A stretch of 64,000 bases of DNA from an uncultured Macellibacteroides sp. (GTDB taxonomy: Bacteria > Bacteroidota > Bacteroidia > Bacteroidales > Tannerellaceae). Shown here piece after piece: positions 15,509 to 64,000 of the stretch. Where the stretch lies: the NCBI RefSeq assembly GCF_963667135.1, contig NZ_OY762974.1, forward strand, positions 1,364,001-1,428,000, read 5' to 3'. The notes beneath the pieces were generated by a model. The model had not been told where the DNA came from, searched no databases, and saw only the letters and a list, made by a program, of their open reading frames with translations. Every line of letters begins with the position of its first letter. Within the stretch, counting starts at the first letter, position 1. Made by a program: the position numbers and the translations under genes.

Positions 15509-15538
15509 TTGCAAAATAAAAATAAATGTTTACCTTTG
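15509..15538 (+). promoter_or_regulatory. Promoter of tRNA-Gln
   Basis: TTG at 15509-15511, exactly 19 nt, then TACCTTTG at 15531-15538: a full match to the Bacteroidetes primary sigma consensus, 26 nt before the mature tRNA. It serves as an internal standard for the promoter-like sequence in the CRISPR repeats. Confidence 0.8.
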
Positions 15539-15564: not shown

Positions 15565-15635
15565 TGTCTCATGGTGTAATGGTAGCACTACAGTTTTTGG
15601 TTCTGTCTGTCGAAGTTCGAATCTTCGTGAGACAA
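15565..15635 (+). tRNA. tRNA-Gln (anticodon TTG)
   Basis: Cloverleaf found by eye: acceptor stem TGTCTCA (15565-15571) pairs with TGAGACA (15628-15634), discriminator base A at 15635. The anticodon loop TTTTGGT carries TTG, reading CAA. The T31-T39 mismatch at the base of the anticodon loop and the T/A acceptor pair are the same as in other bacterial tRNA-Gln. The T arm is GAAG-T-TCGAATC-TTCG-like. CCA is not encoded. Confidence 0.94.
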
Positions 15636-15706: not shown

Positions 15707-15736
15707 TTGTCGCTGATCCCAAAAAAACTATATTTG
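15707..15736 (+). promoter_or_regulatory. Promoter of the GH31 gene
   Basis: TTG at 15707-15709, 19 nt, TATATTTG at 15729-15736: a full Bacteroidetes-type promoter 50 nt before the GH31 start codon. Confidence 0.75.
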
Positions 15737-25992: not shown

Positions 25993-27276
25993 ATGAAAAG
26001 AATCAGCCATCTGCTTCTCCTGTTTCTGCTTATTGCGGTAACGGCAGGCGCAGCACCTAAAGCACTAAAGGAAAAACTTGCTTCCTTGCAGGGAATCGAA
26101 TCTGTCGACACCTTGTCGTCCGACTATTTTACTGAGAAATACGTAGTAACGGTTCGCCAGCCTCTGGATCACCAGCACCCCGAAAAGGGATCGTTCACAC
26201 AGCGTGTGGTGGTTAGCCACGTTGGATACGACCGCCCCACGGTACTGATTACCGAAGGATACAGCGGCGACTACGGACTTAATCCGCGTTACCGTGAGGA
26301 ACTTTCAGGCATTTTCAATACCAATATGATATTTGTAGAGCACCGCTACTTCTCTGGTTCTGTTCCTGATTCACTCAACTGGGACTATCTTACTGCCGAA
26401 AACTCGGCATACGACCTGCATCATATCACCCAACTTTTCAAACAAATCTATCAGGAGAAATGGATCAGCACCGGAATTAGCAAAGGCGGACAAACAGCCT
26501 TGATCTACCGGGCTTTCTTTCCAAATGATGTAGATATAACCGTTCCCTACGTAGCTCCCGTAAGCCGTTCGGCCGAAGATGGGCGTCACGAGCCATTTAT
26601 CAGCCACGTATCCGACACGCAATCAAGAGAAACAATCCTGAACTTTCAGCGCGAAGTATTGAAACGAAGAGAGACCATGCTTCCTCTGCTCGAAAAACTC
26701 TGCAACGAGAAGCAACTAACCTTCCGCATTCCGATGAATGAAGTGCTGGATTATTGCGTGCTGGAATACTCATTCGCCTTCTGGCAATGGGGAACTCCCG
26801 TATCAACCATTCCGGCAACATCGGCAACAGACGATGAACTATTCAGACACCTTGCGGAGATAAGCGGTCCGGAATACTTTGCAAAAGATCAGCCTACCCA
26901 GGCATTCTTTATTCAGGCAGCCCGCGAACTTGGCTATTACGGATATGATACCGAACCGTTCAAAGGGCTCCTTTCCATCCAAAGCAGCAAAGGATACCTG
27001 GAACGAATCATGCTGCCCGAAGGCGTTCGCATTTCATTCCGGCCGGAACTCTACCAAAAGTTAACCCGATTTGTTGCGGAATCCGATCCAAAACTTATCT
27101 TTGTATACGGAGAGTACGATCCATGGACTTCGGTAGGGATGACCCAATTAAAAGGAAAGAAAAATATGTTTGCCGCCGTTCAACCGAAGGGTAGTCACCG
27201 GGCACGTATAAATTCCCTGCCCGACTCCCTGCGCAATAAAGTTATCAAGCGCCTAACAAAATGGCTGGAAGAATAA
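25993..27276 (+). CDS. Exported S37-family (PS-10) aminopeptidase
   Basis: 427 residues with a signal peptide (MKRISHLLLLFLLIAVTAGAA). Alpha/beta-hydrolase serine peptidase of the S37 family, known from Streptomyces tripeptidyl aminopeptidases and common in Bacteroidetes. Nucleophile S163 in STGISKGGQ, likely Asp in VYGEYDPWTS and His in KGSHRARI; the N-terminal domain motif VRQPLDHQHPEKGSF and EGYSGDYGLNPRY are typical. Starts directly after the queG stop, so it is likely co-transcribed. Predicted to remove short N-terminal peptides in the periplasm; substrate not known. Confidence 0.88.
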   Translation: MKRISHLLLLFLLIAVTAGAAPKALKEKLASLQGIESVDTLSSDYFTEKYVVTVRQPLDHQHPEKGSFTQRVVVSHVGYDRPTVLITEGYSGDYGLNPRYREELSGIFNTNMIFVEHRYFSGSVPDSLNWDYLTAENSAYDLHHITQLFKQIYQEKWISTGISKGGQTALIYRAFFPNDVDITVPYVAPVSRSAEDGRHEPFISHVSDTQSRETILNFQREVLKRRETMLPLLEKLCNEKQLTFRIPMNEVLDYCVLEYSFAFWQWGTPVSTIPATSATDDELFRHLAEISGPEYFAKDQPTQAFFIQAARELGYYGYDTEPFKGLLSIQSSKGYLERIMLPEGVRISFRPELYQKLTRFVAESDPKLIFVYGEYDPWTSVGMTQLKGKKNMFAAVQPKGSHRARINSLPDSLRNKVIKRLTKWLEE

Positions 27277-46062: not shown

Positions 46063-46296
46063 CTAACGCACCACTTCAACCGAGCTATCGCGTACCTGCA
46101 ATGTAACACGCGTACTATCGTTCAATTCCTTGTAATTGTAAAGAAACCGAACATTCGTCTGCTTCATAATATCCAAAAAGACCTACTTGAAAGTCCCGTT
46201 TTCTATGTTTAGATCCACTTTCGCATCTTGCGAAAAAGAACGGGACGCCACCATAGAAAAAGTCGAAATAAGAATAACAAGAGTAGTTAATTTCAT
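46063..46296 (-). pseudogene. Relic of a SusC-type STN domain, with internal stop
   Basis: Reading the minus strand from ATG at 46296 gives MKLTTLVILISTFSMVASRS, then FSQDAKVDLNIENGTFK, a TAG stop, then VFLDIMKQTNVRFLYNYKEL, NDSTRVTLQVRDSSVEVV and a stop at 46063. It follows the start of the SusC protein encoded at 39562-43125 (MKLFTLFIIISTFSMVAS ... LNIENGTIKEVLLEIKKQTN ... NDSERVTLNVRDNSVDNV) without gaps. The single stop replaces the Glu after FK, and the copy ends before the rest of the STN domain. The ATG overlaps the stop of the upstream gene as ATGA. It is probably a decayed partial duplication, not a working gene. Confidence 0.85.
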
Positions 46297-48029
46297 GGCT
46301 TTTGTTCAATAGTTTTATTTTTTATACAAGCAATTCGGTAAGATTCAATAGCAATATAACTGGGATTCAGATTTTGTTTTAGCACTTCTTCATTCTTGTG
46401 AATTTCAGAAACCTGTTTAAAGAATATAATACCATCCATTCTTATTTTGGGCGCTATAAATCTAAACTGTCCATTTCGGTCTGCATTTCCTATCATTCTG
46501 CATTTTAAAACATCTTCGCAGTGAAGTTTATCCACAGAAAAATAACAGGTATCAAGATTCAATTGATCTAAATGATACTCCAGACTGTTAGTGGGAGGAG
46601 CCTGTACCGATGCAATTTTAAAATTTGTGACTGTACTATTTGAAGTAACAAAACGGCCAGATCCTGCCATCAAAGAAATACATGAATAATCATCCTTGTA
46701 TTTGTTTCTCATGTAGTATCCAAAAGAATAGCCCTCTATATCAGATGCTTCTTGGCCATATAAGTAGTTTGAGTGGCCCCAATGACTAAATATAGTAACT
46801 GTTTCATTTGCTTTAAGCAAGCTCTTCATTATTAACTCTGTATTTTCATACATTAAGGTATCTCTATGGATAAAATTCTGAAAGGGAGTATTGTTTTGAT
46901 AGATTTTTGTCAGACAATATCTCGCTAATTCCGATTCGCTTTTGTCCAGCATGTTTTCAAATCCATTGTTTTCGTTAAACAAGGAGATTATATCTTCAAG
47001 CGGTGTTTTATACCCAAGCAACAGGTTACAGATCTTCGCCAACTCTTCGTTATTTCTGCCCGTATTAAGGGAGAAAAAGAAATCAAACAGATCAACTTGC
47101 CCTTTCATTGAGATGATATTGGAATCAATACCTAAAAAGTTTACTTTTTGCTCCGAATGCAGGTTGTAATTCTTAATCCATTCTATGAGAGAAGTGAAAG
47201 AATGAGAAAAAAATGTGATGTCAAAAAAAGAAGAAATACTATCCAATTTAAAGTTCTGGTCACCGTGTATGTATCGATTAATATACAGTGAATACTCCAA
47301 AGGAATTTCCACCAGAACCAGCTTACAATTCTTATTCTCAATTCGGTTCTTAATGATCTCGATAGCCATGTTGTTCATCGACTCGGTACCATGAATCGAT
47401 TCGCCGATAGAGAGAATCCTTTTGTCCATAAAAGGGAGACTATTAATAGTTTCCCCATTTAAAGGAACAACATCTTCTTTCTTCAAACAAATATCCTCCG
47501 TATAGTCGGCCGGCAAATAGTCGTATATATTCTTTCCATCAACAAATAAGTCTAATTTATTAACCCAAATCATTCCTCTTTTTTCTTTACTATTTCCACT
47601 TGCTTCAATGCTCAGGCTTACTAATTTAGGATTATTCGCGCAGACGAACGTATCTAATGTACACCAATCAACATTTGGAGTAATATAGAGGGTATCAATC
47701 GCTTGTACCGTTTCACAATCACCAATACCCGCCACCTTCAAATACAGTTCTTTGCATCTCTCTGTTTTATATTTTATTCTTATTTGAACTGTCGACACGT
47801 TCGTCTTTGGGAAAGGAACCAAACAGCTAATAGATCCTTTCTGTTCACCGAATGTTTCTAAAACGATTGAAAGCGGATTTGATGTGCTGTCTATTCTAAA
47901 TTGGAGATAAGAAATTTTGGATTGTACGTTCCAACCATAATCCAATATACCTTTATCGCCCGTTTTATTAGCCGATATTCCACATACACAATACGTTGCA
48001 AGCAGCAATATGATTACTAGTTTATTCAT
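46293..48029 (-). CDS. Erythromycin-esterase-like (EreA/ChaN-type) exported protein
   Basis: 578 residues with a signal peptide (MNKLVIILLLATYCVCGISA). The first about 180 residues look like a beta-sandwich, then the erythromycin esterase-like domain (PF05139 type) begins: LSIGESIHGTESMNNMAIEI carries the Glu and His of the active site, LVLVEIPLEYSLYINRYIHG, FLGIDSN, and VTIFSHWGHSNYLYG the later His. True Ere enzymes hydrolyse the lactone of macrolides, but most relatives in Bacteroidetes have no known substrate, so resistance should not be assumed. The stop overlaps the start of the STN relic. Confidence 0.78.
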   Translation of the reverse strand: MNKLVIILLLATYCVCGISANKTGDKGILDYGWNVQSKISYLQFRIDSTSNPLSIVLETFGEQKGSISCLVPFPKTNVSTVQIRIKYKTERCKELYLKVAGIGDCETVQAIDTLYITPNVDWCTLDTFVCANNPKLVSLSIEASGNSKEKRGMIWVNKLDLFVDGKNIYDYLPADYTEDICLKKEDVVPLNGETINSLPFMDKRILSIGESIHGTESMNNMAIEIIKNRIENKNCKLVLVEIPLEYSLYINRYIHGDQNFKLDSISSFFDITFFSHSFTSLIEWIKNYNLHSEQKVNFLGIDSNIISMKGQVDLFDFFFSLNTGRNNEELAKICNLLLGYKTPLEDIISLFNENNGFENMLDKSESELARYCLTKIYQNNTPFQNFIHRDTLMYENTELIMKSLLKANETVTIFSHWGHSNYLYGQEASDIEGYSFGYYMRNKYKDDYSCISLMAGSGRFVTSNSTVTNFKIASVQAPPTNSLEYHLDQLNLDTCYFSVDKLHCEDVLKCRMIGNADRNGQFRFIAPKIRMDGIIFFKQVSEIHKNEEVLKQNLNPSYIAIESYRIACIKNKTIEQKP

Positions 48030-48880: not shown

Positions 48881-49090
48881 CGACTCTACTGATGCTAACT
48901 TATAACATTTCAGTCTTTTACCATTCAATACAACGTAACCTTTTTTGTCAATTTTTGAAGAGGATATAATCTATAACTCTTACTGAATTTGATTACAGTA
49001 TACCCAGATAAAAGGGATTTCTTGCATTTGATATTTCATATATATACTAAATGAGCAAGTCTATATAAATGTCTTGCGTGGTATTGCTAG

Positions 49091-49114
49091 CATTTTCCTG
49101 ACATCAGGAAAATG
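49091..49114. terminator. Terminator-like hairpin
   Basis: CATTTTCCTG (49091-49100), loop ACAT, CAGGAAAATG (49105-49114), followed by GTTTTATT. A perfect 10-bp stem with a T-rich tail on the plus strand, but no gene ends here, so the transcript it would stop is not known. Confidence 0.5.
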
Positions 49115-49168
49115 GTTTTATTAAAATTCAAGCATTGTACGATAAAAAGAGAATTACCTAGTCTTTAG

Positions 49169-49216
49169 CTTGATCATTAACTTGGTCTATAGCTTGGTCT
49201 ATAGCTTGGTCTATAG
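49169..49216 (+). repeat. 12-bp tandem repeat, three exact copies and one degenerate
   Basis: Exact units CTTGGTCTATAG at 49181-49192, 49193-49204 and 49205-49216, preceded by a related unit CTTGATCATTAA at 49169-49180. Each holds the palindrome CTATAG. Confidence 0.8.
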
Positions 49217-49356
49217 CTTTACCCTACCCTTTGAGAAATGCAAGACATTGTTTGTAATATTATAAGAAAGATCATGCTAAGAGCCTTTTACTTTAGTCTT
49301 AAGAAGTGTATTATTCAATTGATTTCGCTCCATATTGGCTTTTAAATTTAAAGGGC

Positions 49357-49389
49357 TATGAACTATCCGGAAATTCAGGATAGTTCATA
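49357..49389. repeat. 12-bp hairpin with 9-nt loop
   Basis: TATGAACTATCC (49357-49368) pairs exactly with GGATAGTTCATA (49378-49389). Confidence 0.65.
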
Positions 49390-49465
49390 ATGAAGAATAA
49401 AGTAATGTTAATCCGTTAATCTATACTTCTTAAGCGGTCTTTGTCATTCTTCATTTCAATTCAAG

Positions 49466-49493
49466 TATTGTATATAGAAACTATTATACAATA
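49466..49493. repeat. 9-bp inverted repeat
   Basis: TATTGTATA (49466-49474) pairs exactly with TATACAATA (49485-49493) around 10 nt. Confidence 0.55.
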
Positions 49494-49500
49494 ACGAATC

Positions 49501-49550
49501 TACTTGTACGGTTACTTGTACAGTTGTCTGACCAGTTAACCGTACAAGTA
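49501..49550. repeat. 14-bp inverted repeat near the array start
   Basis: TACTTGTACGGTTA (49501-49514) pairs exactly with TAACCGTACAAGTA (49537-49550), 22 nt apart. The left arm is followed by a near copy TTACTTGTACAGTT. It lies about 130 bp before repeat 1. Confidence 0.7.
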
Positions 49551-49676
49551 AGCTAAATTTCATACAGAGAGAGGATTAAATAAAAGATACTCGATTATTG
49601 ATTTGTTAACTTATAAATAACTGTTCAAAAGTATACCAGCTAATACATTACTTCTTTTCTTATATAATCCATAATA

Positions 49677-52600
49677 GTTGTGATTAGCTTGCAAAATTGT
49701 ATCTTTGGCTTATTAGCAACAACCCTCGATAAGTTCGAAATGGTAGATACCTTGTTGTGATTAGCTTGCAAAATTGTATCTTTGGCTTATTAGCAACAAC
49801 AAAAAGCATTTGACAAAAGCGGATTGAGCCGTTGTGATTAGCTTGCAAAATTGTATCTTTGGCTTATTAGCAACAACGGGACGTGTATAACGCTGCAAAT
49901 GAGTTGTGTTGTGATTAGCTTGCAAAATTGTATCTTTGGCTTATTAGCAACAACAAGACGTCAATGATCTGCTTTTCTTATGTTGTTGTGATTAGCTTGC
50001 AAAATTGTATCTTTGGCTTATTAGCAACAACTCGCCTTTTGAATCAAATAACTTATCTGAAGTTGTGATTAGCTTGCAAAATTGTATCTTTGGCTTATTA
50101 GCAACAACAGGCACAACGACCTTCTCCCTATTTGCATGTTGTGATTAGCTTGCAAAATTGTATCTTTGGCTTATTAGCTACAACTGTCTAGCCGAATATC
50201 CACCTCCGGACTAGGTTGTGATTAGCTTGCAAAATTGTATCTTTGGCTTATTAGCAACAACATCATTCATTTAATACATTCAATTTTATGTGTTGTGATT
50301 AGCTTGCAAAATTGTATCTTTGGCTTATTAGCAACAACTGCCGCCAATCCGGAACAATGGGACTTGCTGTTGTGATTAGCTTGCAAAATTGTATCTTTGG
50401 CTTATTAGCAACAACCCATCCGTAGATTGATGATGTCCCAATAGCGTTGTGATTAGCTTGCAAAATTGTATCTTTGGCTTATTAGCAACAACAAATTCAA
50501 TTCATAAATTGTCATTTCATCGGTTGTGATTAGCTTGCAAAATTGTATCTTTGGCTTATTAGCAACAACTATAAGGATAAGTTGCTGATTCCGAATTAAG
50601 TTGTGATTAGCTTGCAAAATTGTATCTTTGGCTTATTAGCAACAACCCCGCTCCGTTTTTCTTGCGGTTAATTGGTGTTGTGATTAGCTTGCAAAATTGT
50701 ATCTTTGGCTTATTAGCAACAACATAGTGATAAGAATCAGCATGCGTTGTATGGTTGTGATTAGCTTGCAAAATTGTATCTTTGGCTTATTAGCAACAAC
50801 ACATAATTCCCATAACTATACCGTGTTCAGTTGTGATTAGCTTGCAAAATTGTATCTTTGGCTTATTAGCAACAACTGTCAACAGAATCAAAAGAGGGAT
50901 CATCATGTTGTGATTAGCTTGCAAAATTGTATCTTTGGCTTATTAGCAACAACCGCCTCGCAAGGTTTATGCTCAGGCAATCAGTTGTGATTAGCTTGCA
51001 AAATTGTATCTTTGGCTTATTAGCAACAACCCCACGCATCCAAGTCCTTGGCATACGAAAGTTGTGATTAGCTTGCAAAATTGTATCTTTGGCTTATTAG
51101 CAACAACGTGGCGGGCCTGTTTGAGCAGCTAAAAACCGTTGTGATTAGCTTGCAAAATTGTATCTTTGGCTTATTAGCAACAACTAATTCAAATTGTCCA
51201 AGTATTGTTACACCGTTGTGATTAGCTTGCAAAATTGTATCTTTGGCTTATTAGCAACAACTTGCTATTTCATAAGGTAACAAAACATCTTGTTGTGATT
51301 AGCTTGCAAAATTGTATCTTTGGCTTATTAGCAACAACTCCAGTCAGTCGGATCCGCAGAGCATGGACGTTGTGATTAGCTTGCAAAATTGTATCTTTGG
51401 CTTATTAGCAACAACAAGGCCTGTAATGCCGACTTGGCGGAAGATGTTGTGATTAGCTTGCAAAATTGTATCTTTGGCTTATTAGCAACAACCTAACAAG
51501 TTTCTGGATCTACTCCCAAATGTTGTGATTAGCTTGCAAAATTGTATCTTTGGCTTATTAGCAACAACGAATTACTTTTAATGTTTGCCGAACTAGATGT
51601 TGTGATTAGCTTGCAAAATTGTATCTTTGGCTTATTAGCAACAACTTAATAGCCGCGTACGACGCACCACCTAAGTTGTGATTAGCTTGCAAAATTGTAT
51701 CTTTGGCTTATTAGCAACAACGAGCGGGTATGGGACTTACAATCGGATTCCGTTGTGATTAGCTTGCAAAATTGTATCTTTGGCTTATTAGCAACAACGT
51801 AAGTACAACAGTACCCTACCAGGCAGCAGTTGTGATTAGCTTGCAAAATTGTATCTTTGGCTTATTAGCAACAACTCTCCCAGCGATCCCAGTACCCAAA
51901 TTACGTTGTGATTAGCTTGCAAAATTGTATCTTTGGCTTATTAGCAACAACAATGAAATAATAGATACGGTATCATTATTTGTTGTGATTAGCTTGCAAA
52001 ATTGTATCTTTGGCTTATTAGCAACAACGCTATCATCATCAGAAGCTCAAACTTACCAGTTGTGATTAGCTTGCAAAATTGTATCTTTGGCTTATTAGCA
52101 ACAACGGTCTACATTTTAAGTCATGTAAGACACCCGTTGTGATTAGCTTGCAAAATTGTATCTTTGGCTTATTAGCAACAACATATACGAGAGAAACACA
52201 TCTCCCTATGAAGTTGTGATTAGCTTGCAAAATTGTATCTTTGGCTTATTAGCAACAACGTTTTTTCTTTTCACCGTAAACAACAACCTGTTGTGATTAG
52301 CTTGCAAAATTGTATCTTTGGCTTATTAGCAACAACCTTTTCATCATCGCGCAATTTGTCTGCTCCGTTGTGATTAGCTTGCAAAATTGTATCTTTGGCT
52401 TATTAGCAACAACATCCTGAAGGATTATAACAGCGTATGGCTTGTTGTGATTAGCTTGCAAAATTGTATCTTTGGCTTATTAGCAACAACCAGGGAGACG
52501 TTATTTCAAATAGTCTTCAAGTTGTGATTAGCTTGCAAAATTGTATCTTTGGCTTATTAGCAACAACTTATCATTCACATTCTTCACGTAATCCGTCGTT

Positions 52601-55600
52601 GTGATTAGCTTGCAAAATTGTATCTTTGGCTTATTAGCAACAACCATTCATTAAAAGGGATGATCCTGTCTATAGTTGTGATTAGCTTGCAAAATTGTAT
52701 CTTTGGCTTATTAGCAACAACATATGTTAATGAATCAGAAGCGGAGTTGGTGTTGTGATTAGCTTGCAAAATTGTATCTTTGGCTTATTAGCAACAACAA
52801 TTATACATTGTATCACGTCACACAATCTGTTGTGATTAGCTTGCAAAATTGTATCTTTGGCTTATTAGCAACAACAGATGTTAAAATAAATGACGAAAAA
52901 CATAGTTGTGATTAGCTTGCAAAATTGTATCTTTGGCTTATTAGCAACAACTATAAACTCTTTTTCTTTCTCGATCTGTCTGTTGTGATTAGCTTGCAAA
53001 ATTGTATCTTTGGCTTATTAGCAACAACCGGTTAAAATTGGATTAGACACCGAATTGGTTGTGATTAGCTTGCAAAATTGTATCTTTGGCTTATTAGCAA
53101 CAACAAAGCCGGACAGATACTCCAGAAAGAAACTGTTGTGATTAGCTTGCAAAATTGTATCTTTGGCTTATTAGCAACAACGCGATGCTGAGCACCTGTT
53201 AAGACAGATCGGTTGTGATTAGCTTGCAAAATTGTATCTTTGGCTTATTAGCAACAACATAACATTAAAAACGTTAAGCCGGTTAATGGTTGTGATTAGC
53301 TTGCAAAATTGTATCTTTGGCTTATTAGCAACAACGCAGATACGTATCCGAAAACACTATCACCTGTTGTGATTAGCTTGCAAAATTGTATCTTTGGCTT
53401 ATTAGCAACAACGCATCTTCTAAGTAATGCCCGGCTTTCATAGTTGTGATTAGCTTGCAAAATTGTATCTTTGGCTTATTAGCAACAACAGACACAGAGC
53501 AAAACTCGCAAGACTTAATGTTGTGATTAGCTTGCAAAATTGTATCTTTGGCTTATTAGCAACAACAGATGGCAATGTAGACCCATGGGAGATAAGTTGT
53601 GATTAGCTTGCAAAATTGTATCTTTGGCTTATTAGCAACAACCGCTTTGGTGCGGATATCGTTAGAGACGACGTTGTGATTAGCTTGCAAAATTGTATCT
53701 TTGGCTTATTAGCAACAACACACGACAATAACATACAGTGTAACAGTAGTTGTGATTAGCTTGCAAAATTGTATCTTTGGCTTATTAGCAACAACAAATC
53801 AAAATCAAATTCATGATCTTGTTTGTTGTGATTAGCTTGCAAAATTGTATCTTTGGCTTATTAGCAACAACATTTTCATTTAAACCAACCGAAGGATATA
53901 GTTGTGATTAGCTTGCAAAATTGTATCTTTGGCTTATTAGCAACAACTCTTATATTATTGGATGAAAGTGTGCGTAGTTGTGATTAGCTTGCAAAATTGT
54001 ATCTTTGGCTTATTAGCAACAACTGTTTGGTGTATTTGATCCATACTTTTTTTGTTGTGATTAGCTTGCAAAATTGTATCTTTGGCTTATTAGCAACAAC
54101 TGATTTTGAAATCTTATGCTACGAAGAACGGTTGTGATTAGCTTGCAAAATTGTATCTTTGGCTTATTAGCAACAACGGTGCAGTTGTCGTTTGTATTAG
54201 GCCGTTCGTTGTGATTAGCTTGCAAAATTGTATCTTTGGCTTATTAGCAACAACTTTAGTGCGGTATACAGACATACGGACATAGTTGTGATTAGCTTGC
54301 AAAATTGTATCTTTGGCTTATTAGCAACAACATAAGGATGCATCGCTGTATGTAAGCAACAGTTGTGATTAGCTTGCAAAATTGTATCTTTGGCTTATTA
54401 GCAACAACTGGTATCTTATGATATACAACGGAACGGGTGTTGTGATTAGCTTGCAAAATTGTATCTTTGGCTTATTAGCAACAACAAAAACCTTTGAACC
54501 TGAGTTTTATGCATAGTTGTGATTAGCTTGCAAAATTGTATCTTTGGCTTATTAGCAACAACGACCAAATACAATTAGCTTTTGCTCCATTGGTTGTGAT
54601 TAGCTTGCAAAATTGTATCTTTGGCTTATTAGCAACAACTTGGACGGTTGTCAGCTACATGGGAAAACTGTTGTGATTAGCTTGCAAAATTGTATCTTTG
54701 GCTTATTAGCAACAACTGATTGTCTTTGAATTTGTGCGATTAAGAAGTTGTGATTAGCTTGCAAAATTGTATCTTTGGCTTATTAGCAACAACTTAATAA
54801 ACAAAATAATATGGGACGGAATGTTGTGATTAGCTTGCAAAATTGTATCTTTGGCTTATTAGCAACAACTAGAGTGTAAAAGCGCTGGCAAATCCCTTGT
54901 TGTGATTAGCTTGCAAAATTGTATCTTTGGCTTATTAGCAACAACTGCGTATTGCTGCAGCAATCACAAAAATGGGTTGTGATTAGCTTGCAAAATTGTA
55001 TCTTTGGCTTATTAGCAACAACGTTATCTAATTCAGGCGTATGTTGGCTTGAGTTGTGATTAGCTTGCAAAATTGTATCTTTGGCTTATTAGCAACAACA
55101 TACAATACCTTGGTTGCAATATATCTATGTTGTGATTAGCTTGCAAAATTGTATCTTTGGCTTATTAGCAACAACTCAATTGTTGACATCCGGAACCAGA
55201 TGGCTGTTGTGATTAGCTTGCAAAATTGTATCTTTGGCTTATTAGCAACAACTCTCTATGAGTTAATCTACATACGCCTTTTGTTGTGATTAGCTTGCAA
55301 AATTGTATCTTTGGCTTATTAGCAACAACGTAGCGGAATGTATGTGTCTGTTTGGTATAGTTGTGATTAGCTTGCAAAATTGTATCTTTGGCTTATTAGC
55401 AACAACTTCAACACGACTATAATCCAACGTCAGATGTTGTGATTAGCTTGCAAAATTGTATCTTTGGCTTATTAGCAACAACATACTGTTGTGGAACGCA
55501 TCAAATAGCAACGTTGTGATTAGCTTGCAAAATTGTATCTTTGGCTTATTAGCAACAACACAACGAGTTGATACGAGAAAGCACCCTATGTTGTGATTAG

Positions 55601-55789
55601 CTTGCAAAATTGTATCTTTGGCTTATTAGCAACAACGCTAATGTTGGTGATGTTAGATACTCACAGTTGTGATTAGCTTGCAAAATTGTATCTTTGGCTT
55701 ATTAGCAACAACGTTTTTTCTTTTCACCGTAAACAACAACCTGTTGTGATTAGCTTGCAAAATTGTATCTTTGGCTTATTAGCAACAAC
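49677..55789 (+). CRISPR. Type II-C CRISPR array, main part: 80 repeats, 79 spacers
   Basis: Repeat of 47 bp starting GTTGTGATTAGCTTGC and ending TTATTAGCAACAAC; spacers 29 nt (17) or 30 nt (62). The count was checked by listing each spacer and agrees with the total length (80 repeats x 47 plus 2,353 nt of spacer). Repeats are nearly identical; the one change I noticed is A42T in repeat 7, at 50179. There is no decayed end repeat. Each repeat includes TTG (position 2-4), 19 nt, TATCTTTG (24-31), a full Bacteroidetes promoter on the plus strand. In type II systems the mature crRNA is spacer followed by the repeat's 5' part, and GTTGTG at the repeat start is as in Neisseria-type II-C repeats, so the plus strand is the likely crRNA strand. 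One spacer occurs twice (52260-52289 and 55713-55742). Confidence 0.98.
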
Positions 55790-55792
55790 AGT

Positions 55793-55800
55793 AGACAAAC
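55793..55800 (+). repeat. Target site duplication, left copy (AGACAAAC)
   Basis: Same 8 bases as at 58306-58313, directly outside the element ends. IS66-family elements make 8-bp duplications. Confidence 0.95.
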
Positions 55801-55832
55801 GTAAGCCTCTGGTAAAGTACATATCATATACT

Positions 55833-55881
55833 ACAAGTTCCGCCAACTTTAACAAAGTCGTCTAAAGTTGGCGGAACTTGT
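55833..55881. terminator. 18-bp hairpin after tnpC, inside the IS66 end
   Basis: Arms 55833-55850 and 55864-55881 (core TTCCGCCAACTTT) are exact reverse complements around 13 nt, just past the tnpC stop. No T-run is seen, so it may protect against outside transcription or act as a transcript end. Confidence 0.6.
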
Positions 55882-55900
55882 TTAAAGTTTGTTCAAGTAG

Positions 55901-57433
55901 TTACGAGTTTGCCGTATTTAAACTCTTCTCCCAGTATTTTGGGAGTAATTCGCAGATATTCTTTTTTGATTCTTTATATATCGGTAGTTTTCTCAAGACA
56001 TCTATCATCCATTCTCGAGGATCTACATTTACAGCCTTACAACTGCTGATAAGCGAGTAAATTATGGCAGCACGTATCGCTGCATCATCATTACCACAGA
56101 AGAGATAATTTTTCCTGCCGATGGCTAAAGGACGTATCGCATTTTCAATAAGATTATTATCGATATTAATCCTTCCGTCATTCACATAACGGGCCAGACG
56201 TGGCAGTAACGTATAAGAATATTGTATAGCCTTACCGACTCGGCTTGTACGAAGGACTTTCAGCCATGTATCACTCAGCCATTTTTCAAATTCGCAGATG
56301 ACGGGATAAGCTTCTTTTCTGCGTTTCTCTCTTCTCTCTTCAGGGGTAAGTTTCTGCTCGTCAGCCAGACTTTCAATCCGGTATAGTTTCTTGATATAGA
56401 CTATTGCCTGGGTGGCTTTTTCGTCATCCTCATCAAGAGCTTCTACAAACTTACGACGTGCATGCGCCCAACATCCGTAAAGCGTAATCCCTTCCTTCCC
56501 TTCAAAACTATCGTAAACGTTATATCCGTCTGTCTGAATATTGCCATGATAGCCCAGCAGTAACTTCTGAGCTGTGGATTTGCTCCTTGATCCGAAGTCA
56601 TAGCTGAAGCATACAGATCCATGCAGCGCGTCTCTCACACACCACATATAACCCTTTACGGCACGATGTTTCTCATTGTCTATTACGGGGATTGTACTTT
56701 CGTCAACCTGTATATAATCACTTGACAGTATTTCTGCCTTTAGTTTGTCGTACAACGGCTTTAGTCTTTCGCAAGTAGCGGCGAACCATCCGTTAATGGT
56801 AGAATCATTAAGTATGACGCCATTTTCTTTATACTTCTGTATCACCCTGTAGAAAGGCAGGTGATACATGAACTTATCCATGATGATATCGGTAAGAACA
56901 GATGCTCCGGCAATGCATTTATCTATTGCCACAGGCGGTATTTCTGCTATTTCAAAGGCTCTTCTTTCCGGATGTTGGATCTGGATGTTGGATTTGAGAA
57001 CGTATTTATGACGTATGATCCGTCTGATATATACCATTGCAGGAATCCTCTCAAGCGAGTCTGTAACTTCAGGTGCCAATTCCGTATATTCCTCTTCGTT
57101 TATTCCTTTGGGATAGATATGTTCCTCCTTAACAGGAAGCTTGGAAGTATCAAGGGGCTTGCGTGAAGGTTTCTCATTATGGCGGCTTACTTTTTTTTCA
57201 ATATTTTCTTGCTCCAGGGCCACCTCGGCCTCAAGTCTTGCTTTCTCATCAGCACTCATCTGTTCTGGGAAGAGGTTAAGCTGGAGATTATCCGGATTCA
57301 GAGGTAGATGTTTTTCGCTCATGCTGCCGAATATCTTTTTACGAAGCCATGCGAGCTGGTTCTCCAAACTGGCTACCAAACCCTTAAGTCGTTCATTCTC
57401 TTCTCGTAATATTTTTGCTTCCGATTCTGTCAT
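55901..57433 (-). CDS. tnpC: IS66 transposase TnpC
   Basis: 510 residues, the full length of the DDE transposase of IS66 elements. Order: a coiled-coil-rich start (REENERLKGLVASLENQLAWL), a linker domain with KPLDTSKLP-type basic part, the zinc-binding/IS66 middle, and the catalytic triad: first Asp in YIQVDESTIPV, second Asp in NIQTDGYNVYD and Glu in NNLIENAIRPLAIGRKNYLF. Ends with the usual IS66 C-terminal domain (ALIYSLISSCKAVNVDPREWM-like). 80 nt after tnpB. Intact. Confidence 0.96.
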   Translation of the reverse strand: MTESEAKILREENERLKGLVASLENQLAWLRKKIFGSMSEKHLPLNPDNLQLNLFPEQMSADEKARLEAEVALEQENIEKKVSRHNEKPSRKPLDTSKLPVKEEHIYPKGINEEEYTELAPEVTDSLERIPAMVYIRRIIRHKYVLKSNIQIQHPERRAFEIAEIPPVAIDKCIAGASVLTDIIMDKFMYHLPFYRVIQKYKENGVILNDSTINGWFAATCERLKPLYDKLKAEILSSDYIQVDESTIPVIDNEKHRAVKGYMWCVRDALHGSVCFSYDFGSRSKSTAQKLLLGYHGNIQTDGYNVYDSFEGKEGITLYGCWAHARRKFVEALDEDDEKATQAIVYIKKLYRIESLADEQKLTPEERREKRRKEAYPVICEFEKWLSDTWLKVLRTSRVGKAIQYSYTLLPRLARYVNDGRINIDNNLIENAIRPLAIGRKNYLFCGNDDAAIRAAIIYSLISSCKAVNVDPREWMIDVLRKLPIYKESKKNICELLPKYWEKSLNTANS

Positions 57434-57513
57434 TCCCCCGTTTTATTTACAGGGTAAATGTAGTGAATATCAATTGTTTATACAAATTATTAACTAATTA
57501 TTTGCTGTTATAA

Positions 57514-57876
57514 TTACAGATTTCTCAGATGTTCCAGTCGGGTTTGCCTACTATCGGGTTTCTCCATGATTCCTTCCACCAGAAGAACCAGGTCACGCCA
57601 TTGCATCGGGTATGACGCATTATTCACTGAAGAACAATCTGGTAATACGAAGGTACCTCGGTCCAGCATCTTGCAGTATATCACCATTCCTCCTGGTTCC
57701 CAATGAAGCAGTTTGATACGGTTACGGCTCTTATTAATAAAGATGAACACTTCCCCGTTATGAGGATTTGAACCCATCCTGTTCGTAACAAGGCCACTTA
57801 ATGTGTGGAAGCTTTTTCGCATATCCGTAGGCTCGCTATATAGTAGGTAGCGGTTACTGTCACCCAGACTAAACAT
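57514..57876 (-). CDS. tnpB: IS66 accessory protein TnpB
   Basis: About 120 residues from the ATG at 57876 (MFSLGDSNRYLLYSEPTDMRKS, the family start); an ATG four codons earlier at 57888 is also in frame. The IS66 Orf2 signature is clear: SGLVTNRMGSNPHNGEVFIF and KLLHWEPGGMVIYCKMLDRGTF. Needed with TnpC for transposition of IS66 elements that carry three genes; the exact function is not known. It overlaps the end of tnpA by a few bases. Confidence 0.94.
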   Translation of the reverse strand: MFSLGDSNRYLLYSEPTDMRKSFHTLSGLVTNRMGSNPHNGEVFIFINKSRNRIKLLHWEPGGMVIYCKMLDRGTFVLPDCSSVNNASYPMQWRDLVLLVEGIMEKPDSRQTRLEHLRNL

Positions 57877-58234
57877 GACCCACAGCACATAAGATTATAC
57901 TTCTGAGCTGAGAGCTGTCAAGCTCACCTTGTATTCTGATCATTACACCGCCTGCAGTCTGCAGTTCGATATTCAGATTGCAATTGGTTTCACTTTGAGA
58001 GGCTGATGCTTTCTTAGCCTTTCGTGTAAGGGGCGGACACGGTATAAAAGTACCTTTATCTCCAAGTTCAAGCAGTTCATTGGGTGAACACGCATCTTTA
58101 GCCTTCTCGTACCTGCCTTTTGCCTCATAAAATCGCCATTGGGCAATTCCAAGTTCTTCAAGACGGGATTTAAAACTTACTTTTTGCTCCGTACAATGAA
58201 GTACAATGGAGGCTACTTCTTCTTTTGTCATCAT
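57869..58234 (-). CDS. tnpA: IS66 accessory protein TnpA
   Basis: 121 residues. Small basic protein with an N-terminal HTH-like part (EEVASIVLHCTEQKVSFKSRL, GIAQWRFYEAKGRYEKAK), typical of the IS66 TnpA of Bacteroidetes, and a C-terminal line GGVMIRIQGELDSSQLRSI. First gene of the element; TATCTTTG at 58259-58252 on the minus strand is a -7 element just upstream. Role assumed to be DNA binding. Confidence 0.88.
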   Translation of the reverse strand: MMTKEEVASIVLHCTEQKVSFKSRLEELGIAQWRFYEAKGRYEKAKDACSPNELLELGDKGTFIPCPPLTRKAKKASASQSETNCNLNIELQTAGGVMIRIQGELDSSQLRSIILCAVGHV

Positions 58235-58305
58235 AATCTTATTGTTTTTGGCAAAGATAACAGCCTAACAATAATAAAAAAAGATGGATTTCACCGGAGG
58301 CTTAC

Positions 58306-58313
58306 AGACAAAC
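58306..58313 (+). repeat. Target site duplication, right copy (AGACAAAC)
   Basis: Exact match to 55793-55800; together they fix the element as 55801-58305. Confidence 0.95.
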
Positions 58314-58332
58314 CCACCACCCTCTTTTCGCC

Positions 58333-58456
58333 GTTGTGATTAGCTTGCAAAATTGTATCTTTGGCTTATTAGCAACAACACGTTTATCAGCAAATACTTC
58401 ACCACGATTGTTGTGATTAGCTTGCAAAATTGTATCTTTGGCTTATTAGCAACAAC
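58333..58456 (+). CRISPR. CRISPR array, part beyond the IS: repeats 81-82 and spacer 81
   Basis: Repeats at 58333-58379 and 58410-58456, both the consensus sequence, with one 30-nt spacer between (58380-58409). They belong to the same array as the main block, as the split spacer shows. Next to cas2, 107 nt from its stop codon. Confidence 0.97.
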
Positions 58457-58563
58457 AGGATGTTCACATCTCACTGTTGCATAGATGTTTAAGCAAAGAA
58501 TTAGAAACAAAAAAAATTGGCGTTTCTTTAATAAATCCTGCTCATTGAGTGGGATTTATTATT
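58457..58563. other. Spacer region between repeat 82 and cas2
   Basis: 107 nt that hold an A-rich stretch and the hairpin at 58530-58560. No promoter with both elements was seen. It may be a leader remnant or the untranslated end of cas2. Confidence 0.6.
58530..58560. terminator. Hairpin after cas2
   Basis: AATAAATCC (58530-58538) pairs with GGATTTATT (58552-58560), with an inner CTC/GAG stem. It lies just past the cas2 stop on the minus strand and before the array on the other; it could end the cas operon or transcripts from the array. Confidence 0.55.
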
Positions 58564-58899
<336 letters not shown>

Positions 58900-58917: not shown

Positions 58918-59853
58918 TTAACCCCATTCGGGATAACTAATCTTTCTTACTTCTCCACTAAAACATTTATATAAAGAAGCCGTGGTCTGTGAAACAGCAA
59001 TCATTAAAGGACTGCGTTTTCCATTAATTACAACATCTAAGACAGGTATTGACAGCAACTTCATCTTTAATTCTGAAGTCAGATTCTCACCCCTTAATTC
59101 ATTCTCTGGTAATTCTACTATCAATTTATCGACAAACGGACGATAAGGTTCCATAATATCGTCTGCCAAACAATAAGCGTTATATTTATTATGATGGTGA
59201 ATTCCAAGTGTTGGCAAAAGTCCACTGCTCACTAATGACTTCGCAACTATGGCACGAAGTATGGCATATCCGTAATTGAGTAATGCATTTGGAGCTACAC
59301 CCTCTCGATGCCTTGTAAAATCAGAAATATGAGGAAACAGATTTGCCCAGTAATAAACTGCAGCTCGGGCCTCATAATTATCAGGATCACCGCTTTTTAC
59401 ATCATTTGCCCATATCCTCATATTATTAACTATGACTCTCCTCGTATCTTCCAAAAGAAAAGCTTGATTTTCAATTTTAGACTTGATTGTTTGTTGCCAT
59501 AATTGTTTTTTAAGAGGGATTGAGGCATCAATTTGTTCTCTGAATCGCTCGCTCTGGGTTGTATTACCACAAAGAGGCAGCATAAGTCCAACAGGTAGAT
59601 GTGAAGAGTCACAGGTAATTATAGCGCAATTATTTTCAAGGAGCATTTCCAACAGCCCATGGGTAATTGTAATTTGTTTATGGTCCAATATAATTACGCC
59701 AATATCTTCTATAGGAATGGTACGTTCCGACTCCTTTTTAAAGGAATCGGACACCGTGTCATTCTTTTCTATTTCAGGTAATCGTAACACTAACTGTGTA
59801 TTTCGAAGACTCAAATAGACTGGATTTCCAAAGTACAATGTTTTTTTAATCAT
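58918..59853 (-). CDS. cas1: CRISPR integrase Cas1
   Basis: 311 residues, type II form. Metal ligands by motif: E161 in YEARAAVYYW, a His in LGIHHHNKYNAY (H219-221), and E235 in DDIMEPYRP. The N-terminal beta domain begins KKTLYFGNPVYLSLRNTQL. Together with Cas2 it integrates spacers at the leader end of the array. The start codon overlaps the cas9 stop (ATGA-type, 4 nt), so it is translationally coupled to cas9. No csn2 or cas4 is present, which places the locus in subtype II-C. Confidence 0.97.
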   Translation of the reverse strand: MIKKTLYFGNPVYLSLRNTQLVLRLPEIEKNDTVSDSFKKESERTIPIEDIGVIILDHKQITITHGLLEMLLENNCAIITCDSSHLPVGLMLPLCGNTTQSERFREQIDASIPLKKQLWQQTIKSKIENQAFLLEDTRRVIVNNMRIWANDVKSGDPDNYEARAAVYYWANLFPHISDFTRHREGVAPNALLNYGYAILRAIVAKSLVSSGLLPTLGIHHHNKYNAYCLADDIMEPYRPFVDKLIVELPENELRGENLTSELKMKLLSIPVLDVVINGKRSPLMIAVSQTTASLYKCFSGEVRKISYPEWG

Positions 59854-62800
59854 AGCTTAACAATTTGACCTAATCTGTTTGTCTTAATTTTTATACAGAT
59901 TTCTTTTATCATTTCTCCACTCCATGTTCGCTGAGCTTTATTATTCGATCCAAGTTCAGTAGTCTGTAGTATTGGAGATGCAACGAAGTGAGGAATACAG
60001 TGACATTCATTATCTGTGCAAGAAACAAACTTATAAATTCGATCTTGAATAATATTATCAATCTCTATAACACGCCCTTCTTCATCAAATGAAGGAACAT
60101 AAACCAAATCTCCTGGTGAAAGCCAAAAAAGTAATTTTTCTTCCTTACTATTCTTTTCCGGAACAGGAATTAAACCTTGTTTTTGTCTTTCTGCCACTTC
60201 GTTTAAAGGCACAGTAAAGTAGCTTCTTGAACCTTCATCCGAAACATAAACAGCAAAGAAAAGATTGGTTCCTTTTGCTGCCTCCACGTACTTAGTTTTT
60301 TTATTACCCGTTTGACCAACAGTAAATTTATTGCCCATTATCTCGTAGGTCCTTACTTTTTTGATTGGCTTATGAAACTTGCCATCATTTAATGCAGTCA
60401 TATTTACATTTAATGTATCTAAGCCATCTGTTGAAAATGCAAGTTCTGGATGCTCAATAATTTTATCCCCTTTAATCTCATTATAGGAGGCTAGGTGTTT
60501 GAGTAATATCTTTTGAATACCAGTATCTGTTATAGATTCTATTCTTGAAGAAGTAAACGAATCATCGAGTGTTACGCGAGATGCAGCACAATCATTGTCA
60601 AAGTAATAGATATCAACTTTTGTAACATCTGCTCCGTTGTGTTTATTTTCTCTATCTTTGAAAAACTTGACAATATATTTGCTTCCCTTTTCACCATATT
60701 TTGAGTAAAGAAAACCTATTTCTTTCCTTAATGACTTATCAACAATATTTCTCCAATCTTCAATAGCTTGGCTAAGTCGCACCGTTTTAGTTTTACGTAA
60801 AGATACAGCTGCCGAAACAGTATCCTTATGCATTGGTTTTCTGATGGCCCAACTCTCTCCTTTTGATTGTTTTACAATTTCTTTTTTCCCATTAACAAAA
60901 CACTCATATCTATTAGTCGCTTTATTCACTACACGTAGATTTTGTTTAAAACTAACTATAATAGACTGAAGAACTTCATGAGCATCTTGAGTAAATGTAG
61001 GCCAAGGCTTATAAAACTCTTTCGCAACCTCAATCTTTTTTGTAACAGTTACACCATCCTTTAGCTCCTGTTTTTCCAAAATCTCTATACGTCTCAGTTT
61101 TCTTCTTAAATCATAACGTTTGTCTTTCGATTTGGAGTGAGCTGATTCGTTGTTCAGGTAATTAACATGACTCCGCGTCGCACAAGCAATTACAATTGCA
61201 TCCATGGCATGATGCCTATGGTCAATTCTCTTTTTGTTAAATCCTTTCTGTAATTCTAAAGGCATTTCAATTTGGAAAACTCTTTTACCCTGTTTATTCT
61301 CCCATTGTCCAAATTTATCGCTATTTGTTAGCCGATTGAGTCTTTCAAAACGTGGGTATATAATTGTATTCCAGATATCATTTAACCCCCAATCTCTTTT
61401 CAGTTTGTCAGTAATTGATCCGGTACATACAATTACATTTTTAGAAATGGCCTCCTCTTCGTCTTTTTCTCTTACCACACTGGACAATAGCTTCTTAATT
61501 TCACGACTTATATATCTGCTATCATTTAATTGCCTCTCAATAAAAGAATCCGGAATTGTATCCATTAATAATTTCTTCTTTTTAGCAACAGAACCTGCAT
61601 AATGAGATTGAATAAACTCAGTATAGGAGTCTGCTGTAAAAAGTTTCACTTTCTTTCCCAAACCAATTTCAATTATTTTTCCTTCATTTTGCTTAATATA
61701 TTCGTATGCCAGCAGATTATCCTTGTCTTTGTTTACTGCAGACTCGCAAATTACTTTATTAGAAAAAGAGTCATCAAAATAACGTGATTGGGGAATAACG
61801 TGTTCTATTTCATAATCGGAAGTAAAAAGACGTGCCAATGGTATCATCTGCCCCGTATAAGGTGACCGATATTTTTGTTCCAACCAACATTTATATTTTA
61901 TAAGATCTGATGCTGAAGGCTGTGCCATCTTAGATATCTTGCTAATTGCATCATAATCTGGATCTTCCTTTGTTAGCATATTTAAAACACCTTCTTCGTA
62001 AATCCTAAGAATTTCCTGCTGAGACGGTGAATAGGGCCTCACTCCTTCAATGTCTTTCTGATTGGCCAATTCTGCTAAAAGGGCTTTTATACGCAAATTG
62101 GTATTCTCATTTTCCACATTTTGAATAGTCATCCTTAAACGCTTATCAGCCGGATTTTTCATTTCCCGCCCCAGCTCTATATGTATTTCATTAAAGTATC
62201 CATAGGTTTTCCACAAGTCTTTTACCACCTTTAATGTCTCCACAACAACAACCTCTACTATCGGATTTCGGAGTCCGTGTTGTTTGAACACATGTTTTAA
62301 GTAATAATCAATATCCTCGGGAGTTTCCCATTTCATAACATCACCAGATTCAGAATGGCGATCGTACACAATATAGCTGGCAAGCCATAGAGGCAAGCCC
62401 TGAAAATCTTTTATTTCATTTAACTTTAGAGCTTTATCCCTGGTTCTTATTTTAATAGTTTCATCACATTCGCCATCAATCATCTTTTGGATTCGATCCT
62501 TTGTTAAATCGGCTATCTCATTTTCAGACCAGCGACTTCCCATACGCATAAGTTGCAGTAATTTCTTAATTGCTTTGGCAGAATAAGAACCGTATTCTTT
62601 CTTGAAAGGAGGAAAATTTTTGAACTGTTCAACAAAAGCTACCTTTTGCTCTTCGTTTAGCTCTTTTTTAATAGCAAAAGAAGTTAGTGCTTTCTCTATA
62701 TCATACTTATCTTCAACCGAGTAGAGAATATGCCACAACGATTCTTCTGTGTCTTTATCAAAGAACTCAGCAGGAATATTCCCTGCTTTATTTAGTCTGG

Positions 62801-64000
62801 TTTTCAACACTGAACGAGTTTCATTACAAGGATAAGCTTTGTCTTCAACATAATTCCAGCGATATTTATCTATATTCTTTTTTAAACCTAATACAGGATA
62901 TTTTAGAAATCCCTTTTGATCAATTTCCTTGTGTTCGTTTAACCAATCAAAAAGCAAAACATATTCTTCTTGAGTGGGGAAAAATTCAGGAGTTACATCC
63001 TGGTCAAACTTCATCGTATCACCCACCATTTTTTCACGTTCTATAATTCGCAAATTTTTAATAAACTGCCAAAGTCTGAATTCCTGAAATAAAGGATGCG
63101 ATTTAGCAATGCATTTTATGGGAGAATAAGCTAATTCTTTTGTTACTGGATCCACAAAACAACGCCTTTCGAATGAACAATTTTCAATCAGCGATTTTTT
63201 GCTTTTTAGCGGTCTTTGATAAAAAATCACATCCTCTGTTATAAATCTTGTAAAATCATAGTTAGCCACAGAAAGCCTGCGAGATTCATTACTGCGATAT
63301 AATTCTTCAACACATTTACTGTAAATCATTTTATCATTCAGCTCCGGATGGAACTCTTTTTGTTTATTCAAAATAGCTATAAGTTCGCATTTATAAAATT
63401 TGCGTTCTATAGTACGAATCAATCCTCCCTTAATTTTTTGATCAGGAGTTTCCAAAAGTGTATCATATATATAAGAACCAACAGTTTTACCACTTTTACC
63501 CAAATCAGATTCCGTTTTCTTTTTGAGTAAAGTCCAGTCATTTTCGGCAGGAGCCCTAAATTTTCTTTTTTCTTTTCCTTCTTTATCTTTTAGCGCATTT
63601 CCATTTTCATCAATATCTGTGGTAACGATAAATTCTTTTATTTTACCTACCCAATCTAAAGGTATTTTACTTGTACGCCTATAAATCCACCCATTTTCCA
63701 GAAAAACATTATACCAGATTTCTCCATTTTTTCCGGAAGATGAATTATCAGCTTCGACCCGAATAACCTTTAAAGCAAAATATTCCTCTTTTTTCCCTTC
63801 CTTTATAGTTTCATCTTCTTCGCCTCTTAGTTGGTAGTAACCTCTTTTATTGTTGAATTGGAGTATAATCCAGCCTAACTCTTCTTTAGTTATAGCTTTA
63901 TCCAATGCTTTCTTTCTTAAATAGTAAATCGTCCAATCGTAAGGTACTTTTTTGTTGTTTTGAACCAATTCAGGCTGATGCATTTGGAAATCTTTCAGCA
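59850..64000 (-). CDS. cas9: Cas9, subtype II-C, N-terminus beyond the right edge
   Basis: RNA-guided double-strand DNA endonuclease. The frame is open from the right edge to its stop, at least 1,382 residues, so the whole protein is probably near 1,450-1,550, larger than the II-C norm of about 1,000-1,100 and like the Bacteroides-type enzymes. Counting residues from the first visible ATG (63983): RuvC-II Glu E603 in IHIELGREMK, HNH His H728 in YEIEHVIPQSRYFDDS, with N in FSNKVICES and the following NKDKDN, and RuvC-III H924/H925-D928 in DHRHHAMDA. The RuvC-I Asp and bridge helix start are outside the window. The C-terminal PAM-interacting part runs to residue 1377. All visible catalytic residues are present. 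Confidence 0.97.
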   Translation of the reverse strand, partial: LKDFQMHQPELVQNNKKVPYDWTIYYLRKKALDKAITKEELGWIILQFNNKRGYYQLRGEEDETIKEGKKEEYFALKVIRVEADNSSSGKNGEIWYNVFLENGWIYRRTSKIPLDWVGKIKEFIVTTDIDENGNALKDKEGKEKRKFRAPAENDWTLLKKKTESDLGKSGKTVGSYIYDTLLETPDQKIKGGLIRTIERKFYKCELIAILNKQKEFHPELNDKMIYSKCVEELYRSNESRRLSVANYDFTRFITEDVIFYQRPLKSKKSLIENCSFERRCFVDPVTKELAYSPIKCIAKSHPLFQEFRLWQFIKNLRIIEREKMVGDTMKFDQDVTPEFFPTQEEYVLLFDWLNEHKEIDQKGFLKYPVLGLKKNIDKYRWNYVEDKAYPCNETRSVLKTRLNKAGNIPAEFFDKDTEESLWHILYSVEDKYDIEKALTSFAIKKELNEEQKVAFVEQFKNFPPFKKEYGSYSAKAIKKLLQLMRMGSRWSENEIADLTKDRIQKMIDGECDETIKIRTRDKALKLNEIKDFQGLPLWLASYIVYDRHSESGDVMKWETPEDIDYYLKHVFKQHGLRNPIVEVVVVETLKVVKDLWKTYGYFNEIHIELGREMKNPADKRLRMTIQNVENENTNLRIKALLAELANQKDIEGVRPYSPSQQEILRIYEEGVLNMLTKEDPDYDAISKISKMAQPSASDLIKYKCWLEQKYRSPYTGQMIPLARLFTSDYEIEHVIPQSRYFDDSFSNKVICESAVNKDKDNLLAYEYIKQNEGKIIEIGLGKKVKLFTADSYTEFIQSHYAGSVAKKKKLLMDTIPDSFIERQLNDSRYISREIKKLLSSVVREKDEEEAISKNVIVCTGSITDKLKRDWGLNDIWNTIIYPRFERLNRLTNSDKFGQWENKQGKRVFQIEMPLELQKGFNKKRIDHRHHAMDAIVIACATRSHVNYLNNESAHSKSKDKRYDLRRKLRRIEILEKQELKDGVTVTKKIEVAKEFYKPWPTFTQDAHEVLQSIIVSFKQNLRVVNKATNRYECFVNGKKEIVKQSKGESWAIRKPMHKDTVSAAVSLRKTKTVRLSQAIEDWRNIVDKSLRKEIGFLYSKYGEKGSKYIVKFFKDRENKHNGADVTKVDIYYFDNDCAASRVTLDDSFTSSRIESITDTGIQKILLKHLASYNEIKGDKIIEHPELAFSTDGLDTLNVNMTALNDGKFHKPIKKVRTYEIMGNKFTVGQTGNKKTKYVEAAKGTNLFFAVYVSDEGSRSYFTVPLNEVAERQKQGLIPVPEKNSKEEKLLFWLSPGDLVYVPSFDEEGRVIEIDNIIQDRIYKFVSCTDNECHCIPHFVASPILQTTELGSNNKAQRTWSGEMIKEICIKIKTNRLGQIVKL

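Follow-up and report, generated by a model that had tools for sequence, protein, structure and literature searches.

The DNA analysed here, referred to as the window, is a stretch of 64,000 nucleotides (nt) from an uncultured Macellibacteroides sp. and contains a clustered regularly interspaced short palindromic repeats (CRISPR) array together with the genes of a type II-C system. The array (49677-58456) comprises 82 repeats of 47 bp, all on the plus strand; 81 of them are identical and one has a single change outside the motif described below. The minus strand of the window holds no array repeat, and all 82 matches of a whole-genome search for the repeat lie inside the array. Repeats 1-80, located by repeat finding in the window and by the genome search, occupy 49677-55789. 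Repeats 81-82 of the same array (58333-58456) follow on the far side of an insertion sequence (IS) of the IS66 family (55801-58305, minus strand; Pfam IS66 transposase and TnpB_IS66), which lies within the spacer after repeat 80 and has the 8-bp target duplication AGACAAAC on both sides. Apart from this one spacer split by the insertion, 63 spacers are 30 nt and 17 are 29 nt long. Next to the array, cas2 (58564-58896) and cas1 (58918-59853), both identified by profile search, and cas9 (59850-64000, running off the window and above the TIGR01865 cut-off in the whole genome) lie directly side by side on the minus strand. The array adjoins cas2, and its plus-strand orientation is convergent with the genes. 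A hairpin at 58529-58561, between the array end and cas2, is terminator-like on both strands (58525-58575: -16.9 kcal/mol on the plus, -11.6 kcal/mol on the minus strand). The operon has the type II-C composition cas9-cas1-cas2 without csn2 or cas4, the stretch upstream of cas9 lying outside the scan for cas4. A trans-activating CRISPR RNA (tracrRNA) with an anti-repeat near cas9, likewise characteristic of type II-C, is present as sequence about 0.5 kb past the window end.

We propose that each repeat carries a promoter matched to the primary sigma factor of the Bacteroidota, a reading to which we assign a probability of about 0.82, and that each stored phage memory, i.e. each spacer, is probably transcribed on its own. 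In all 82 repeats, TTG at positions 2-4 (49678-49680 in repeat 1) is followed after 19 nt by TATCTTTG at positions 24-31 (49700-49707 in repeat 1) on the plus strand, as an earlier note on this DNA had stated. According to the available parts of a study of sigma ABfr (PMC7366714), the primary-sigma consensus consists of TAnnTTTG at -7 and, at a variable distance, TTTG around -33. The repeat has the same TAnnTTTG box, reading in 82/82 copies into the next spacer; its -33 element differs, being GTTG, which shares three of four letters with the published TTTG. The earlier note's match to the primary sigma consensus thus stands for the -7 box and is partial for the -33 element. The distance of 19 nt is the same as in the tracrRNA promoters of related loci. 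The letters of the -33-like TTG are fixed by the common GTTGT start of these repeats, hence they are not independent evidence, and the term "full promoter" overstated this part. We regard the plus-strand direction and the -7 box as well supported and the -33 part of the repeat promoter as weak.

The window contains 85 matches to the fixed pattern TTG-N19-TAnnTTTG, with 1.53 expected and a maximum of 5 in 100 shuffles. Beside the 82 repeats, the remaining three matches begin at 15509, 15707 and 27074. The match at 15509-15538 precedes a tRNA-Gln gene at 15565 and that at 15707-15736 precedes an open reading frame (ORF) of a GH31 protein (15787-17394, Pfam); both had been named in the earlier note and were recovered in the pattern scan. 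The third (27074-27103) lies inside an ORF (25993-27276), 245 nt ahead of the next ORF, a GH20 gene, and may be due to chance. The figure of about 80 promoters in 8 kb given before corresponds to 82 repeats in 8.78 kb, 2.5 kb of which is IS66. Since the 82 repeats are copies of one sequence and represent a single independent observation, related repeats were tested.

Related loci were collected in two sets. A Cas9 search of 395 genomes from the same class gave 93 with a match over the cut-off, from which 91 regions of 89 genomes were taken (class survey). An alignment of Cas1 added 80 named loci, the best 80 of at least 587, chosen by their likeness to this kind of Cas1. Of these 171 loci, 127 have an array of this kind; arrays were kept by the fit of the repeat start to a 17-nt anchor, not by the box. 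Three (L036, L067, L124), belonging to a different repeat family, were dropped before the motif count, and for L101 and L120 the repeat was defined manually, which resulted in 124 arrays with 122 distinct repeats. Against shuffled repeats, a comparison that the earlier note had proposed for the longer TTG-N19/21-TAnnTTTG, TAnnTTTG is far above chance: it is present after position 17 in 78 of the 122 distinct repeats, compared to a mean of 3.5 and a maximum of 11 in 500 shuffles that kept the first 17 nt. By set, these are 21/55 repeats of the class survey and 58/68 of the named set, one repeat being common to both; without the position limit the box is found in 79/122 and 22/55, respectively. 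It starts at position 23 or 24 in most repeats (range 18-27), and the gap from TTG to box is 18-19 in most related repeats. At the two n positions, TC is found 61 times; the remaining 18 occurrences have TT, CC, AC, CT or AG. Among all patterns of the form XXnnXXXX, TAnnTTTG ranks first in unique repeats overall and in the named set, and second in the survey set.

Some arrays of the collection deviate from this layout. L101 is a II-C repeat of 57 bp, about 10 bp above most others. Displaced box-like sequences are seen in L120 (GATCTTTG at position 31), L123 (GATATTTG at 32) and L098 (TATCTTTG at 17); by eye, TTTG lies 19-20 nt upstream of the displaced sequence in L120 and L123. The 36-bp repeats of L077, L080 and L083, which we take to be of the Flavobacterium columnare kind, contain no TAnnTTTG. 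The repeat of L036, found on a 6.4-kb contig of a genome in which a Bacteroidota-type array (L084) is present as well, is another kind of type II repeat ending in TACAATC; presumably it is Neisseria-like, and it could represent contamination or transfer.

In these samples the box is specific for strand and system. On the opposite strand, TAnnTTTG is found in 0/122 II-C repeats. As a control of other CRISPR types, 50 regions around other-type cas1 genes from the same 395-genome sample yielded 37 arrays, in which TAnnTTTG is absent from both strands (0/37 versus 22/55 in the II-C repeats of the survey; p = 1.4e-6 by Fisher's test without correction for kinship). Plasmid records extended the comparison to other phyla, where TAnnTTTG is absent from 5/5 arrays beside type II cas1; three of these five repeats end in TATAAT or TACAAT at positions 31-36. 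Three of the five records are annotated cas9-cas1-cas2 and two are unannotated (L312, L316; type II by the adjacent cas1). Not counted were L320, whose array stands next to csm genes, and L322, a II-A array, both without the box, and L319, L321 and L323, which gave no array. The parallel solution suggested before, i.e. a repeat-borne promoter in the form suited to each host, fits these repeat ends, the number of arrays being small. A Phocaeicola plasmid repeat carries TATCTTTG.

The distribution of changes on a Cas1 tree (121 loci) resembles the promoter consensus. Parsimony steps for the eight box positions are T 12, A 13, n 22, n 23, T 7, T 9, T 16 and G 18, compared to 21-23 in the two positions before the box, 36-42 in the four positions after it and 30-42 over positions 32-40. 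The TA and TTTG columns thus change less than the nn columns, and the downstream flank changes most. Within the named set, T occupies position 28 in 68/69 and position 24 in 64, while the commonest letter at positions 26 and 27 is kept in 52 and 54. These data support that the box behaves on the tree like TAnnTTTG and not like a frozen 8-mer. Interior repeat variants (15 distinct ones in 77 arrays) were too few for a test.

A further comparison is offered by decayed first repeats. A partial repeat was sought one spacer length ahead of the first intact copy, with the 99% level of shuffles as threshold, and was found in 49 of 89 arrays with enough upstream sequence; 29 of the 49 are exact-box arrays. 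The scan found none upstream of the Macellibacteroides array. The box is kept in 24/29 decayed first repeats, or in 24/26 after dropping L184, L162 and L192 (register artefact or 8-nt matches). In the 24 box-keeping arrays, a table that omits L148 and L059, mismatches amount to 238/542 before the box, 0/144 in TA and TTTG, 4/48 at nn and 9/389 after the box (fixed letters versus nn, p = 0.0035). A 2025 study in Microlife (PMC12080349), as far as its text was available, reports that II-C first repeats are mutated mostly in the first 15 nt with weaker tracrRNA pairing and suggests that they must stay promoters. Its main text, to the same extent, has no "Bacteroid", "Flavobacter" or "Capnocytophaga" and "Riemerella" once; in the decayed repeats studied here, TAnnTTTG belongs to what is retained, and in the 24 arrays nn are the only box positions that changed.

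The tracrRNA delimits the other part of the repeat. Positions 1-26 (49677-49702 in repeat 1, plus strand) pair with the anti-repeat in an RNA duplex of -26.8 kcal/mol, which leaves CTTTG of the box outside. Ahead of the anti-repeat, the tracrRNA gene itself has TTTG-N19-TACATTTG (box at genome position 1428516, conserved tail from 1428552). A recognisable tail was found in 113/171 loci, and TAnnTTTG with variable nn precedes the anti-repeat in 83 of these 113; the gap from TTG to box is most commonly 20 (26 loci), followed by 19 (16 loci). No more than three of the eight box letters fall within the aligned duplex in 43 of the 62 loci that bear the box.

Taken as a promoter, the box would make the 47-bp repeat a composite element. 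Positions 1-26 would pair with tracrRNA within the CRISPR RNA (crRNA) of the preceding spacer, TATCTTTG at positions 24-31 would serve as -7 box, and the GTTG at the repeat start, 19 nt further upstream, would act as a partial -33 element. Transcription would begin around position 35, and RNA polymerase would proceed through the 3' end of the repeat and the next spacer into the following repeat, where tracrRNA pairs. By the -7 convention this start is slightly upstream of the last 8-12 nt proposed in the earlier note, and about 13 nt of repeat would precede the spacer in the transcript. Every spacer would thereby have its own promoter on the plus strand, directed toward cas2, and the hairpin before cas2 could stop convergent transcription. 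Sigma binding, start site, transcription and termination we infer from this layout. A wider generalisation, that II-C repeats consist of two parts of which the promoter half is matched to the host sigma, appears to us evenly balanced. It would place TAnnTTTG around 24-31 in many Bacteroidota and TATAAT or TACAAT in the final six positions in several other phyla. At the leader-distal end, the first repeat would be maintained as a promoter-only half-repeat which drives spacer 1 and cannot make a spacerless crRNA, and the 46-48 bp length of Bacteroidota repeats would reflect the promoter layout.

Several results weigh against a promoter in each repeat, and part of them would also be expected if the array were transcribed into a single long precursor, by a promoter upstream of it or one that escaped notice, with the box as an ancestral relic without promoter function. 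The exact box stands after position 17 in only 21/55 class-survey repeats, some families have none within one mismatch, and the exact box is missing from the repeat of a Persicobacter plasmid, likewise of the Bacteroidota. Within clusters, repeats resemble each other by descent: weighted by cluster, the box count is much lower (8.9/34), therefore ancestry inflates the raw count and part of it is shared descent. By this weighting TAnnTTTG ranks second overall, first in the named set and sixth in the survey set, and ATnnTTGA, which overlaps the box by seven letters, is higher at 10.5. Bipartite promoters within 300 nt upstream are found in 2/9 arrays without box, 3/22 with one mismatch and 7/50 with the exact box; most of the seven look by eye like decayed repeats at least one unit upstream. 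Compensation by leader promoters, with more upstream promoters at box-less arrays, was considered and found no support. In decayed first repeats, the sequence after the box is also retained and does not differ from the fixed letters (p = 0.12). Box-specific retention is therefore seen only against nn, a contrast that becomes weaker when all 26 arrays are included (6/156 fixed versus 7/52 nn, p = 0.02). The box is lost in L148; L059 was counted as lost as well, and a gapped alignment reads its box as kept with nn changed. TTG at a gap of 18-21 remains in only 6/24 box-keeping decayed first repeats. Against a long precursor and a relic speak the lower rate of change of the TA and TTTG columns, the 24/26 decayed first repeats with the box, and the absence of TAnnTTTG from the plus strand upstream of the array (49001-49676). 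Moreover, in the available parts of the literature, an IS-split II-C array of Flavobacterium psychrophilum is reported to be transcribed in both halves. We consider this explanation unlikely.

The box might also be conserved as part of an RNA, i.e. for tracrRNA pairing or as RNase III site, or as recognition sequence of Cas1-Cas2. Its first letters lie within or beside the duplex at the Macellibacteroides locus, the aligned (gapped) duplex extends past three box letters in 19/62 loci, a further point against the promoter, and the outer repeat ends (GTTGT, ACA) are conserved. What makes such a role quite improbable is that CTTTG lies beyond the duplex at this locus, that the two n positions vary as the sigma consensus allows, and that the same box stands ahead of tracrRNA genes. 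In addition, the first repeat keeps the box although no useful crRNA comes from it and although it is remote from the acquisition end, which published reports, in their available parts, place on the cas2 side. Alternatively, cas2-side (leader) promoters could transcribe the array on the minus strand, as some annotations assume for Prevotella intermedia and Riemerella anatipestifer; the excerpts available place the leader, and in Riemerella also putative promoters, between cas2 and array. Against this, the tracrRNA anti-repeat pairs with the plus-strand reading, and a minus-strand TAnnTTTG is present in none of the 122 repeats and, within up to 300 nt past the cas2-side array end, in only 4/119 loci. 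The P. intermedia repeat as given in that source has TATCTTTG at 24 when reverse complemented. A minus-strand array thus seems extremely improbable, and we favour a sigma-matched promoter in each repeat.

Such a promoter would be a phylum-specific version of the arrangement known from Neisseria and Campylobacter. The parts of the literature accessible to us describe for the II-C systems of Campylobacter jejuni and Neisseria meningitidis likewise a box in each repeat, a start per crRNA, and cas9-cas1-cas2 with tracrRNA; in C. jejuni the repeat promoters were demonstrated by differential RNA sequencing. There, an ordinary -10 box lies in the 3' part of the repeat, whereas here TAnnTTTG occupies positions 24-31 of 47 bp, 16 nt from the end. 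Novelty for the phylum, as implied in the earlier note, was overstated: according to the passages available, repeat-encoded promoters have already been proposed for the II-C arrays of F. columnare, from TTG only and eight RNA sequencing reads, and F. psychrophilum, whose strain CN46 has an array IS-split like the present one with both parts transcribed. In these passages, TTG at 33 or 35 bp upstream of the spacer is the only repeat element named, and TAnnTTTG is applied to cas9. No statement of TAnnTTTG in Bacteroidota CRISPR repeats was found in the literature covered (including PMC10309648 and PMC7366714), a partial coverage from which we do not claim absence from print. In the sections available, R. 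anatipestifer authors found no promoters in the 47-nt repeats with a generic predictor, the addition of new spacers at the 3' (cas2-side) end is reported for R. anatipestifer, and the P. intermedia authors, also using a generic predictor, read the array from cas2 and found no strong promoter near anti-repeats. Orientation methods are described, in the text at hand, as often disagreeing for type II-C.

If the promoter reading is true, many Bacteroidota would express each spacer alone, and expression would depend little on the length of the array, the age of a spacer or insertions like this IS66. The box would further provide a simple sequence rule for orienting these arrays, which two papers, in the parts available, read from the cas2 side. 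It might explain the failure of generic predictors in the Riemerella repeats and near the P. intermedia anti-repeats.

Spacer targets, sought for orientation and protospacer adjacent motif in the segment 49677-55789 (80/82 repeats), gave no match in a phage collection. An identical 30-nt spacer is present twice in the array, at 52260 and 55713. On the minus strand of IS66, TATCTTTG starts at 58259, ahead of the first ORF (ATG at 58234). Near the array, 46293-48029 on the minus strand encodes an Erythromycin esterase family protein (Pfam), and short tandem repeats with a TAGCTTGGTCTA-like unit are found upstream of the array at 49165-49220.

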